NCBI GenBank assembly: GCA_944332815.1
Contig: CALVKQ010000001.1
Span: 242,579-306,578 of the forward strand
Length of the DNA: 64,000 nucleotides
Direction: 5' to 3'
Source: an uncultured Clostridia bacterium
GTDB lineage: Bacteria; Bacillota; Clostridia; Christensenellales; CAG-917
In this document: piece after piece, positions 13,917 through 51,038 of the stretch
Layout: each line of letters opens with the position of its first letter
Numbering within the stretch: position 1 is the stretch's first letter
Position numbers and translations under genes: made by a program
Notes under the pieces: generated by a model
What the model was told of the DNA's origin: nothing
Seen by the model: the letters and a program-made list of their open reading frames with translations, nothing else
Database searches by the model: none

Positions 13917-15805
13917 TTCTTTTCCTCCTTATTTACTGCTCTCAGGAACATGACCGAATTGGGCGGTATGTTCAGTTTGACGGAATAGGGATAGCCGTGC
14001 GACGGCTTCCCCACGGCGCGGAAAGACGGACGCCTCTCCTCCGCCCCGCCGTACTTTTTAAGTGCGGAAGTCAGTTCCGCCTTGTATATCTTGTTCTCGG
14101 GCACGCCCATGACGTACTTGCGCCTCTCCACGGGCGAGAAGTTGACCACGCACACCACATACTCCCCGTCCGCCGCCTTGCGGATGAAGGACACTATGTT
14201 CTGTTTGTTGTCGTCCACCACTATCCACTTGAAGCCGTCAAAGCTGCAATCCAGCTGCCAAAGGGCTTTGTGTTCGAGATAATACGCGTTGAGGTCCCGG
14301 ATGAACTTGCGGAAAGTGCGGTGACGGGGATAGTCCAGAAGGAACCAGTCCAGCTCCTGCGCATAGTTCCACTCTATGAACTGCGCGAACTCGTTGCCCA
14401 TGAAATTGAGCTTCTTGCCGGGATGCCCCATCATGAAACCGTAAAAGGCTTTCAGGCCCTCGAACTTCTGGTCGTAGTCGCCGGGGACTTTGTTTATCAT
14501 GCTCGCCTTGCCGTGCACCACCTCGTCGTGAGAGATGGGGAGGATATAATTCTCCGAATACGCATACGTGATGGCGAACGTGAGGTCGTTGTGATTGTCC
14601 TTCCTGAAAAAGGGATCGAGGGCGAGATAATGCAGACAGTCGTTCATCCAGCCCATGTTCCACTTGAAGTTGAAGCCCAGTCCGCCCTGATACGCAGGCA
14701 GAGTGACCATCGGGAACGCCGTGGACTCCTCCGCTATGGTGATGGCTCCGTGATGTTTTGTCAGGATGGCGGTGTTCATCTTCTGCAAAAATTCCTTGGC
14801 TTCCAGGTTATAGTTGCCGCCGTAGACGTTGGGGGTCCACTCCCCGTCCTTCCTGCCGTAATCGAGATAGAGCATGCTCGCCACCGCGTCGCAGCGGATG
14901 CCGTCGATGTGATACTCGTCGAACCAGAACATCGCCGCCGAGATGAGGAAGCTCTTGACCTCGTTCTTGCCGAAATCGTAGACCTTGGTCCCCCACTCCT
15001 TATGCTCCCCTTTCCTGGGGTCGGCGTACTCGTAAAGCGGAGTGCCGTCGAACATCGCCAGCCCGTGCTCGTCGCGCGGAAAATGCGCCAGCACCCAGTC
15101 CAGTATCACGCCTATGCCCGAACGGTGGCAGCGGTCCACGAACTCCATGAAATCGTGCGGAGTGCCGTAGCGCGAGGTGGGGGCGAACATCCCCGTCACC
15201 TGATAGCCCCAGCTGCCGTCGAAAGGATACTCCGTCACGGGCATGAGCTCCACGTGCGTGTACCCCATCTTTTTGAGGTAGGGGATGAGCTGGTCGGCAA
15301 GCGCGGTGTAACTTAAACAGTTGCCGTCCGAATACCTGCGCCAGCTGCCGGCGTGGATCTCGTAAATGTTCATGGGAGAGCCGTAAGGGTTATAATCCTT
15401 GCGCTCCGTCATCCATTTGCGGTCCTTCCAGTGATAGCCCGTGATGTCGTAAAGTTTGGAAGCGTTCGCGGGCGCGGTTTCGAAATGCAGCCCGTAGGGG
15501 TCGCATTTGAACACCGTCTTGCCGCGCTTGTCCGTGACCGCGTACTTATAAGCGTCGTACTGTTTCAGCCCCGGGATGAACAACGACCATATCCCCTCCT
15601 CCTCTCGCATGGGGGAGGCGTCCTTGTCCCATCCGTTGAACTCGCCGACGACGGAAACCGCCGCCGCATTGGGCGCCCACACGACAAACCTCCATCCCTC
15701 GACTCCGTTTTCCGTCGTCGGGACGGGCGAAAACATCTTGTGCGCCTGATAATTGGTGCCTTCGTGAAAAAGATAAGTTGCGTAGCTGTCCGGCGTTGAG
15801 GACAT
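13913..15805 (-). CDS. glgB: 1,4-alpha-glucan branching enzyme
   Basis: Introduces alpha-1,6 branches in glycogen. It has 630 residues: an N-terminal CBM48 (about 30-130) and a GH13_9 barrel. The catalytic regions are [14 protein letters not shown] (I), [17 protein letters not shown] with the nucleophile Asp near 302 (II), IAEESTAFP with the acid Glu near 357 (III) and [10 protein letters not shown] near 426 (IV). Region I has Leu where DWVPAHFP is usual. First gene of the glycogen operon, with a good promoter 42 nt upstream. The ATG at 15805 has only a distant GGAGAG. Confidence 0.96.
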
Positions 15806-26412: not shown

Positions 26413-26715
26413 CCGACCCCATCCCGGGGAACATCCGCGCTTGACGGAAAAATCCACCGATCAACTATGCGTTGTTCTCCAAAGCGAGCAGAAGGGTTGC
26501 AGGTCGCATTCTTGCGAATGCGAGGGCAAGGGAGTTTACTTGGGCGTAAATGACCGAAGCCAGAGCATGAAGTAAGGATGTCGAGATGCGCCCTTATCCT
26601 CGCTTTGGCGTACCATGAGGGATTCGTGAGGAGCGTGCTCGACACGCGACGATAAAGCGAATGCGCCGCACGTATTCTGCGAGCGGAGCCGAGCAGGCGG
26701 CGCAGAGCGTCACCC
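26413..26715 (-). repeat. tRNA-Arg(ACG)-tail repeat unit, distal copy
   Basis: A 303-bp block nearly identical to 26963-27264. Read on the minus strand it contains the 89-bp core (26626-26714), then a 23-bp copy of the tRNA-Arg(ACG) 3' end from the T loop through CCA (26604-26626), then a roughly 190-bp tail segment with no ORF I accept. Confidence 0.9.
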
Positions 26716-26716
26716 G

Positions 26717-26941
26717 TGCCGGACAGGACCGATCCGGACCTGCCTCGGAGCAATTCTTTTCGGCGCTTTCGCGCAGCCGGAATTTGCCAATATGTAAACT
26801 ATTGCCTGCGTTCCGCTTGCACAAAATCATCCGAAAATCTCTTGCTCCGAGGTGCGAACAGTTCTTCGCCGTCAATTTTTACAAGTAAAAAAAGCGTGAC
26901 CCTGCGGCGGCGAACCCGATCCGTATCGCTCCTTTCCGGCC
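26717..26941 (-). mobile_element. MITE-like element, GC-rich subfamily
   Basis: About 225 bp with imperfect terminal inverted repeats beginning TGCCGGACAGGACC and ending CTTTCCGGC. An inner inverted repeat (CCTCGGAGCAA ... TTGCTCCGAGG) is shared with the 279-bp elements at 36954 and 37981. It is inserted in the linker just before the 89-bp core of the distal repeat unit. It encodes no protein. A second copy lies at 50517-50739 in the opposite orientation. Confidence 0.75.
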
Positions 26942-26962
26942 TGGTAAGAATCCCTCGGGGAA

Positions 26963-27264
26963 CCGACCCCATCCCGGGGAACATCCGCGCCTGACGGAAA
27001 AATCCACCGATCAACTATGCGTTGTTCTCCAAAGCGAGCAGAAGGGTTGCAGGTCGCATTCTTGCGAATGCGAGGGCAAGGGAGTTTACTTGGGCGTAAA
27101 TGACCGAAGCCCGAGCATGAAGTAAGGATGTCGAGATGCGCCCTTATCCTCGCTTTGGCGTACCATGAGGGTTCGTGAGGAGCGTGCTCGACACGCGACG
27201 ATAAAGCGAATGCGCCGCACGTATTCTGCGAGCGGAGTCGAGCAGGCGGCGCAGAGCGTCACCC
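26963..27264 (-). repeat. tRNA-Arg(ACG)-tail repeat unit, proximal copy
   Basis: Matches 26413-26715 with very few differences. Core 27175-27263; tRNA-tail copy 27154-27175 with one base missing relative to the tRNA; tail segment 26963-27153. It follows the real tRNA terminator directly. Confidence 0.9.
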
Positions 27265-27324: not shown

Positions 27325-27401
27325 TGGCGTACCATGAGGGATTCGAACCCCCGACCTTCTGGTCCGTAGCCAGACGCTCTATCCAGCTGGGCTAATGGTA
27401 C
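27325..27401 (-). tRNA. tRNA-Arg (anticodon ACG)
   Basis: 77 nt including an encoded CCA. The acceptor stem GTACCAT/ATGGTAC is perfect. The anticodon loop CTACGGA between TCTGG and CCAGA gives anticodon ACG, and the T loop is TTCGAAT. A consensus promoter (27422-27450) and a terminator flank it. It reads CGU-family arginine codons, presumably after A34 deamination. Confidence 0.96.
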
Positions 27402-50062: not shown

Positions 50063-50139
50063 GTTTCCGTAGCTCAGTAGGATAGAGCGTCCGCCTCCTA
50101 AGCGGAAGGTCGTGGGTTCGAATCCCGCCGGGAACGCCA
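50063..50139 (+). tRNA. tRNA-Arg (anticodon CCT)
   Basis: 77 nt with an encoded CCA. Acceptor GTTTCCG/CGGGAAC (one G-U pair), D arm GCTC...GAGC, anticodon stem TCCGC/GCGGA with loop CTCCTAA giving anticodon CCT, and T arm GTGGGTTCGAATCCCGC. Reads AGG. Confidence 0.96.
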
Positions 50140-50141
50140 GC

Positions 50142-50170
50142 AGACCCCACTCAAAAGTGGGGTCTTTTGC
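50142..50170 (+). terminator. Terminator of tRNA-Arg(CCT)
   Basis: AGACCCCACT/AGTGGGGTCT stem, AAAA-type loop, then TTTTGC. The same terminator is repeated with each tRNA-tail copy downstream (near 50305, 50466 and 50852). Confidence 0.9.
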
Positions 50171-50194
50171 TTCCCACGGGATTCTCTCCCCGTG

Positions 50195-50283
50195 GCTGAC
50201 GCTCTGCGCCGCCTGCTCGACTCCGCTCGCAGAATACGTGCGCCGCATTCGCTTTATCGTCGCGTGTTAAGCACGCTCCTCAC
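50195..50283 (+). repeat. 89-bp tRNA-associated core, copy 1 at tRNA-Arg(CCT)
   Basis: Begins GCTGACGCTCTGCGCCGCC and ends GCACGCTCCTCAC. Same length and nearly the same sequence as 50357-50445, 50742-50830 and, on the minus strand, 26626-26714 and 27175-27263. Confidence 0.92.
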
Positions 50284-50445
50284 GAATCCGCCGGAACGCC
50301 AGCAGACCCCACTCAAAAGTGGGGTCTTTTGCTTCCCACGGGATTCTCTCCCCGTGGCTGACGCTCTGCGCCGCCTGCTCGACTCCGCTCGCAGAATACG
50401 TGCGCCGCATTCGCTTTATCGTCGCGTGTCAAGCACGCTCCTCAC
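50284..50445 (+). repeat. tRNA-Arg(CCT)-tail repeat unit 2
   Basis: A tRNA-tail copy from GAATCC in the T loop through GCC and the terminator (50284-50343), then the 89-bp core (50357-50445). One base is missing in the tail relative to the tRNA (CCGGAACGCC). Confidence 0.9.
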
Positions 50446-50830
50446 GAATCCGCCGGGAACGCCAGCAGACCCCACTCAAAAGTGGGGTCTTTTGCTTCCC
50501 ACGGGCTTCTTACCCAGCCGGAAAGAAGCGATACGGATCGGGTTCGACGCCGCAGGCTCGCGCTTTTTCGCTTATAGAAATTGACGGCGGAGAACTGCTC
50601 GCACCTCGGAGCAAGAGATTTTCGGATGATTTTGTGCAAGCGGAACGCAGCCAATAGTTTACATATTGGCAAGTTCCGGCTGCGCGAAAGCGCCGAAAAG
50701 AATTGCTCCGAGGCTGGTCCGGATCGGTTCTGTCCGGCACGGCTGACGCTCTGCGCCGCCTGCTCGACTCCGCTCGCAGAATACGTGCGCCGCATTCGCT
50801 TTATCGTCGCGTGTTAAGCACGCTCCTCAC
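50446..50830 (+). repeat. tRNA-Arg(CCT)-tail repeat unit 3, interrupted by a MITE
   Basis: tRNA tail plus terminator (50446-50510), then the MITE at 50517-50739, then the 89-bp core (50742-50830). Confidence 0.88.
50517..50739 (-). mobile_element. MITE-like element, GC-rich subfamily, copy 2
   Basis: About 223 bp, the reverse complement of the element at 26717-26941, with ends GCCGGAAAGAAGCG and TTCTGTCCGGCA. It sits at the same point of the repeat unit (between tail/linker and core) as the other copy. The short frames read through it are not genes. Confidence 0.78.
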
Positions 50831-50890
50831 GAATCCGCCGGGAACGCCGGCAGACCCCACTCAAAAGTGGGGTCTTTTGCTTCCCACGGG
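50831..50890 (+). repeat. Final tRNA-Arg(CCT)-tail copy
   Basis: GAATCCGCCGGGAACGCC plus the tRNA-type terminator; no core follows, so the array ends here. Confidence 0.88.
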
Positions 50891-50981: not shown

Positions 50982-51038
50982 TGCCAGACAGGAATAATAC
51001 GAACCAGGTTCCGCGCCGCCGATTTCCGCCTGAACCGG
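50982..51038 (-). mobile_element. Truncated 279-bp-family MITE
   Basis: About 57 bp match the right end of the MITE at 37981-38259 in reverse orientation, up to CCTGAACCG, with a TA before the end. The rest of the element is missing. Confidence 0.75.

Follow-up and report, generated by a model that had tools for sequence, protein, structure and literature searches.

A repeat behind tRNA genes of Clostridia whose units end in copies of the local tRNA 3' end

How does one and the same 89-bp sequence come to stand behind two different arginine tRNA genes, joined each time to the 3' end of the very tRNA that it follows? The question is raised by a 64,000-nucleotide stretch of DNA, here called the window, from an uncultured Clostridia bacterium of the Christensenellales (GCA_944332815.1, contig CALVKQ010000001.1, positions 242,579 to 306,578). 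The source genome comprises 1.63 Mb in 17 contigs; contigs of the source genome, loci and related genomes are denoted below by C, L and G numbers, respectively.

Two arrays at arginine tRNA genes

Behind the intact tRNA-Arg(CCT) gene, three core sequences alternate with copies of the end of the tRNA and of an intrinsic-terminator-like hairpin (Table 1). The exact 89-bp cores that an initial annotation of this DNA had placed at 50195, 50357 and 50742 are indeed there, with 0-1 differences between any two of them. The same annotation described the segments between the cores as copies of the tRNA tail with its terminator: three such copies do follow the tRNA's own 3' end, giving four tail and terminator blocks in total, but they are not perfect, since each carries one or two deletions. 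Searching the window with the first 30 bases of the core gave five matches, against 0 by chance; three belong to the CCT array and two lie on the reverse strand at tRNA-Arg(ACG).

Table 1 Features of the two tRNA-Arg arrays in the window.
Feature	Position	Strand	Source
tRNA-Arg(CCT), intact	50063..50139	+	ARAGORN, Rfam RF00005, sequence
Last 21 bases of tRNA-Arg(CCT), source of the copied tails, CGAATCCCGCCGGGAACGCCA	50119-50139	+	sequence
Intrinsic-terminator-like hairpin with T run, copy 1 of 4	50142..50171	+	repeat families
Terminator-like hairpin, remaining three copies	50304-50333, 50467-50496, 50852-50881		repeat families
Inverted segment from the local T-arm/tail, on the left side of core 1; holds CGGGATTC, the reverse complement of GAATCCCG	50174..50194	+	sequence
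CCT core 1, 89 bp	50195..50283	+	
CCT tail copy 1, GAATCCGCCGGAACGCCA; lacks two single bases of the tRNA (CCC to CC, GGG to GG)	50284..50301	+	sequence
CCT core 2, 89 bp, differing at one base	50357..50445	+	
CCT tail copy 2; one 1-base deletion	50446..50464	+	sequence
222-bp insert, separating the inverted tail piece from core 3	50517..50738	+	
CCT core 3, 89 bp, same sequence as core 1	50742..50830	+	
CCT tail copy 3; one 1-base deletion, ends in CCG, not CCA	50831..50849	+	sequence
tRNA-Arg(ACG), second host in the window	27325..27401	-	ARAGORN
ACG unit 1 core, followed by an ACG tail copy	27175..27263	-	
ACG unit 2 core; shared insert (26718-26940) upstream, 20/20 tail copy after it	26626..26714	-	

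That the core is common to the two loci while the attached tail is local also holds true: the ACG cores, which lie on the opposite strand at 27.2 and 26.7 kb, carry the ACG tail. Between the two loci the cores are 92-100% identical. Unit 3 of the CCT array shares its 222-bp insert with ACG unit 2, and at full length this insert occurs only at these two places and at the ACG locus of the related genome G005. Its right-hand 153 bp correspond to a palindromic repeat that is dispersed in the genus, mostly away from tRNAs, with about 30 matches in the source genome and 52 in G002.

Open reading frames inside the CCT array are not conserved, and the variation in stem length between loci breaks any frame; a protein-coding core was rejected on these grounds.

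Two further palindromic sequences accompany the arrays. In the ACG array (26630-27170, minus strand), a long hairpin AAGCGAGGATAAGGG...CTGCTCGCTTTGG follows each tail copy in place of the local terminator, and has the appearance of another small palindromic element. At about 50985-51010 of the window we noted the motif GGAATAATACGAACC, which recurs within terminator-like palindromes behind several tRNA arrays of the genus, for example at Leu(CAG) and Ser(GGA) of the source genome and at Leu of G008.

A family of repeats at many tRNA genes

The genome scan for the core at other tRNA isotypes that the initial annotation had proposed was run, and many isotypes were found. Searching the source genome with the core sequence returned 11 places near four tRNAs, namely Arg(ACG), Arg(CCT), Asn and Thr(CGT). 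Covariance models (R1, built on ten cores, and R2, built on 104 matches) extended this to 32 places at E<=0.01. As many as 22 of them follow a tRNA on its strand at a distance of no more than 1 kb, where at most 1.3% of positions would be expected (p about 3e-34). One model match in the window itself, at 15149 (E 0.004), was taken as chance: it is far from any tRNA and devoid of the conserved motifs.

Hosts in the source genome comprise Arg, Asn, Thr, Trp, Tyr, Ser, Pro and Val tRNAs, along with Ala, Lys and Leu at contig ends or displaced, which removes the pattern once seen in both window hosts being arginine tRNAs. Some of the matches without a nearby tRNA sit at contig ends and apparently continue arrays of another contig: Ala(CGC) at the end of C5 and the start of C13, Thr(GGT) at the end of C2 and the start of C1, and Lys(CTT) on C11 and C16. 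Two more elements stand apart from tRNA-Leu(CAG), from which a 15.8-kb stretch displaces them.

This island (C6:9066-24881, L247/L248), located between tRNA-Leu(CAG) and its array, encodes a DNA methylase with a type III-like restriction subunit, a DUF4391 protein, a Rep-like protein, a tyrosine integrase and a large serine recombinase. The serine recombinase gene ends beside the array; a similar recombinase adjoins arrays in G006, G008 and G009.

Over the source genome and related Clostridia of the gut, the covariance model finds about 186 elements, a total that includes a few overlapping regex readings of single elements. A same-strand tRNA lies less than 1.5 kb upstream of 126 of them, and these tRNAs represent 26 isoacceptors; most of the others are at contig ends. 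The list of isoacceptors rules out an arginine-specific link. It also revises the earlier view that the core had been recruited twice, while the other part of that view, a core joined to different tRNAs and amplified with the end of each host, stands. An exact pattern scan of GTDB genomes yielded at least 117 stretches, nearly all of the matches listed being Clostridia and Christensenellaceae MAGs. The distribution is patchy, since strong matches occur in just 14 of the 161 sampled genomes of the order, in 9 genera. Loci hold one to four cores, some arrays being cut by contig ends.

In the consensus order, the tRNA gene comes first, together with its tail and its terminator. An inverted stretch of local tail follows, frequently GGATTCTTACC, and after it come GCTGACGC, the variable stem, (C)GCTATTCCGTC, a small hairpin and CTCCTTAC, which is the consensus right end of the core; the local tail from R57 to CCA completes the unit. 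The element always has the strand of the tRNA. In all 99 well-matched cases the junction falls between C56 and R57 of the T-loop. Base 56 is C in 99/99 and T55 has become A in 95/99, and from R57 onward the local tRNA is matched at 91-100% per position. The last 14 bases of the tail agree with the local tRNA in at least 13 positions in 95 of the 126 cases, against 0.36% for other isoacceptors; among 61 pattern matches, the tail copy is 20/20 in most. An inverted piece that matches the local tail over 8 nt or more is present in 33%, against 1.1% for other isotypes.

Stem types are specific to species and to loci. Stem similarity reaches 0.292 between different genomes at the same tRNA (0.033 by permutation) and 0.126 between different tRNAs of the same genome (0.035 by permutation). 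The stems are thus alike both by tRNA across species and within a genome, implying inheritance at old loci as well as spread or conversion of the core from one locus to another. The order of units differs between species at Tyr (source genome versus G002 and G005) and at Arg(CCG) (G006 versus G001), for which recombination across the 20-bp tails suffices as an explanation. The continued presence at orthologous loci across species could alternatively reflect a function.

The form of the element and its possible origins

In the stems of the element, 10 of 22 pairs are altered on both sides, a level attained by 0 of 500 shuffles. A structured RNA tolerates G-U on the transcribed strand but not an A-C mismatch. 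Among 1,439 cells of the element stems we counted 20 G-U and 23 A-C, compared with 141 G-U and 9 A-C in the acceptor and T stems of tRNAs at the same loci; the p-value of this contrast, about 2e-11, is indicative only, given non-independent sequences and an alignment that had been fitted to the model. Since G-U and A-C are equally rare in the element, unlike in the tRNA stems, its pairing is probably maintained at the DNA level. This points to selection on a DNA hairpin or to correction of palindromes by template switching, and the latter would also account for a left arm that matches the local tail. The argument rests on the family and not on the CCT copy, because the palindrome of the CCT core is damaged, part of it being lost, and as single-stranded DNA this core folds no better than its shuffles (z +0.71).

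We favour, with a probability of roughly 0.55, a small gene-free palindromic DNA element that resides behind tRNA genes and is fused at C56/R57 to a copy of the 3' end of its host. A unit would consist of the tRNA tail, the terminator, sometimes passenger DNA, the inverted tail piece and the core, and could be duplicated or lost when tail copies recombine or when slippage occurs between them, producing tandem arrays. The core would be inherited at old loci and would also spread or convert between tRNA loci within a genome, acquiring the local tail each time. Its acting form would be DNA, as a hairpin or cruciform; the fusion was presumably made at the T-loop by recombination or template switching, and the array would have no RNA function. 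This reading draws on the anatomy with its constant junction and local tails, on covariation lacking a G-U bias, on the species- and locus-specific stem types and on the differing unit order.

Foremost among the alternatives, yet unlikely, is a system of integron-like cassettes. Insertion would take place at the T-loop, the core would act as a folded attC-like site, and the unit would be a cassette with its own tail and terminator, inserted and excised by a recombinase acting in trans. The likeness to integron arrays and CALIN is considerable: units stand in tandem, imperfect palindromes have conserved ends and variable interiors with the conserved linker unpaired, stem types are partly genome-specific like those of attC sites, and no integrase lies nearby. 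The constancy of the C56/R57 junction, the complementarity of the inverted left arm to the start of its own unit and the species-dependent unit order fit as well. However, the units lack cargo genes, are built from the 3' end of one tRNA and mostly stay with it, and the 20-bp tails account for their gain and loss, through homologous recombination or through slippage. Nor does an integron integrase or any other recombinase track the element among the genomes searched. Our search for IntI met only XerS-like and phage-type integrases, the integron model scoring 62.5 against a cut-off of 265 bits.

Integron-independent recombination is doubtful too: insertion would occur at the T-loop, hairpin-ended cassettes restoring the tRNA with a matching 3' end and terminator, driven by the conserved XerS-like recombinase or an unknown enzyme. 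If true, these bacteria would have tRNA genes that are modular and exchange their 3' ends. A single XerS-like tyrosine recombinase is present in every element-bearing genome searched; its best NCBIfam match, XerS, scores below the cut-off. Its gene often lies within a few kb of the Trp or Tyr array, as it does in several relatives; in the source genome it is placed between the Tyr and Trp arrays (C3:5198-6400, L272). A dedicated tyrosine recombinase was nonetheless rejected, as the XerS-like gene is the only universal one and is present in element-free relatives too.

Other candidate drivers were set aside as well. Neither Y1 transposases nor serine recombinases occur in all element-bearing genomes: the Y1 domain PF01797 is absent from G001, G003 and G006, and no serine recombinase domain was found in G002, which has 10 elements. 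G006, with 11-13 elements, encodes a single XerS-like tyrosine recombinase and a single serine recombinase and lacks a Y1 transposase. The same absence of PF01797 from three genomes speaks against a hairpin element of the RAYT/REP type or derived from IS200/IS605.

A functional RNA is likewise improbable. Read-through of the terminators would yield small RNAs made of core and tRNA tail, acting as regulators or processing decoys in the manner of the E. coli RrA, RrB and RrF; the initial annotation had speculated on decoys or processing substrates. Such a role would agree with the invariable strand, the covarying stems and the preservation at the same tRNA across species, and the E. coli tRNA-linked repeats (TLRs) behind 5S rRNA give rise to transcripts, which bind Hfq and CsrA in vitro (PMC8144298). 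Against it weigh the lack of a G-U excess in the stems, unlike those of tRNAs at the same loci, the terminator ahead of each core and the deletions in the window copies. In an Rfam search of the cores, only tRNA scored above the cut-off.

Far less probable is an origin as remnants of phages or ICEs that used tRNA 3' ends as attB, with the core as an attP arm surviving deletion. The block of identity from T-loop to CCA is typical of tRNA attachment sites, as for Ms6 at tRNA-Ala (PMC1762012), and the island at tRNA-Leu(CAG) does carry tyrosine and serine recombinases between the gene and its displaced array. In contrast to integrative elements of tRNA genes, the repeat has no genes, uses one core for 26 isoacceptors and repeats a local terminator in every unit. 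In addition, islands are inserted between tRNA and core, without a clear core at their ends, and the exact pattern has no match on IMG/VR viral contigs.

Segmental duplication between loci, or an assembly error, can practically be dismissed: the near-identical cores and the common insert of the two arginine loci would suit it, but at each of many loci, and in independent MAGs of different studies, the flanking tails and terminators are the local ones, and the related genomes refute both.

Likeness to the E. coli TLRs

The known kind that comes nearest is that of the TLRs of E. coli, first described in 1978 and identical in layout, a family that includes the RtT RNA (Rfam RF00391) behind tyrT/tyrV and RrA, RrB and RrF behind 5S rRNA. 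Apart from RrA, RrB and RrF, these repeats are not known to have a function, nor is their origin known. Ten loci of E. coli together hold 22 TLRs, and the last 18-19 bp of the repeat equal the 3' end of the upstream gene (PMC8144298). RrA, RrB and RrF, set between dual terminators behind 5S, arise as small RNAs by terminator read-through and bind Hfq and CsrA in vitro; apart from these three, the function of TLRs is unknown (PMC8144298). We found no description of tRNA 3'-end repeats in Clostridia in literature whose coverage excludes most subscription papers.

Checked directly, E. coli tyrV has three 19/19 tail copies, and its unit contains an inverted stretch of 10 nt from the local tail, a length reached in 2 of 2000 shuffles; at rrnB an inverted tail was looked for and none was found. 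Both families consist of tandem units on the strand of the tRNA, the 3' end of each unit copying the gene just upstream, and both follow the order hairpin, conserved linker, hairpin, short spacer and tail. The inverted piece at tyrV has its counterpart in the Clostridia element, whose one to four cores per locus are within the TLR range of one to five. In contrast, the core sequences are unrelated (RF00391 is unmatched in the source genome and in the loci scanned), the Clostridia tail copy begins at R57, and ten loci in E. coli compare with 26 isoacceptors over many Clostridia genomes.

Altogether, the repeat has a TLR-like layout with an unrelated core, is much more widespread than the E. coli TLRs, and is neither arginine-specific nor an artefact. 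Most likely it is a DNA element that captures tRNA ends. Its presence at 26 isoacceptors provides a comparative data set able to settle how tRNA ends are captured, and the family already argues for DNA as the selected or maintained form.

The element also accounts for assembly breaks beside tRNA genes in these genomes. Within the variable stem of some cores we observed tandem hairpin units of 44-60 bp, of the CCCCAGCCGAAAATCAAAGATTTTCGCCCGGGGACCCC type, which break the assembly (L013 2006-2145; end of L308; start of L082).
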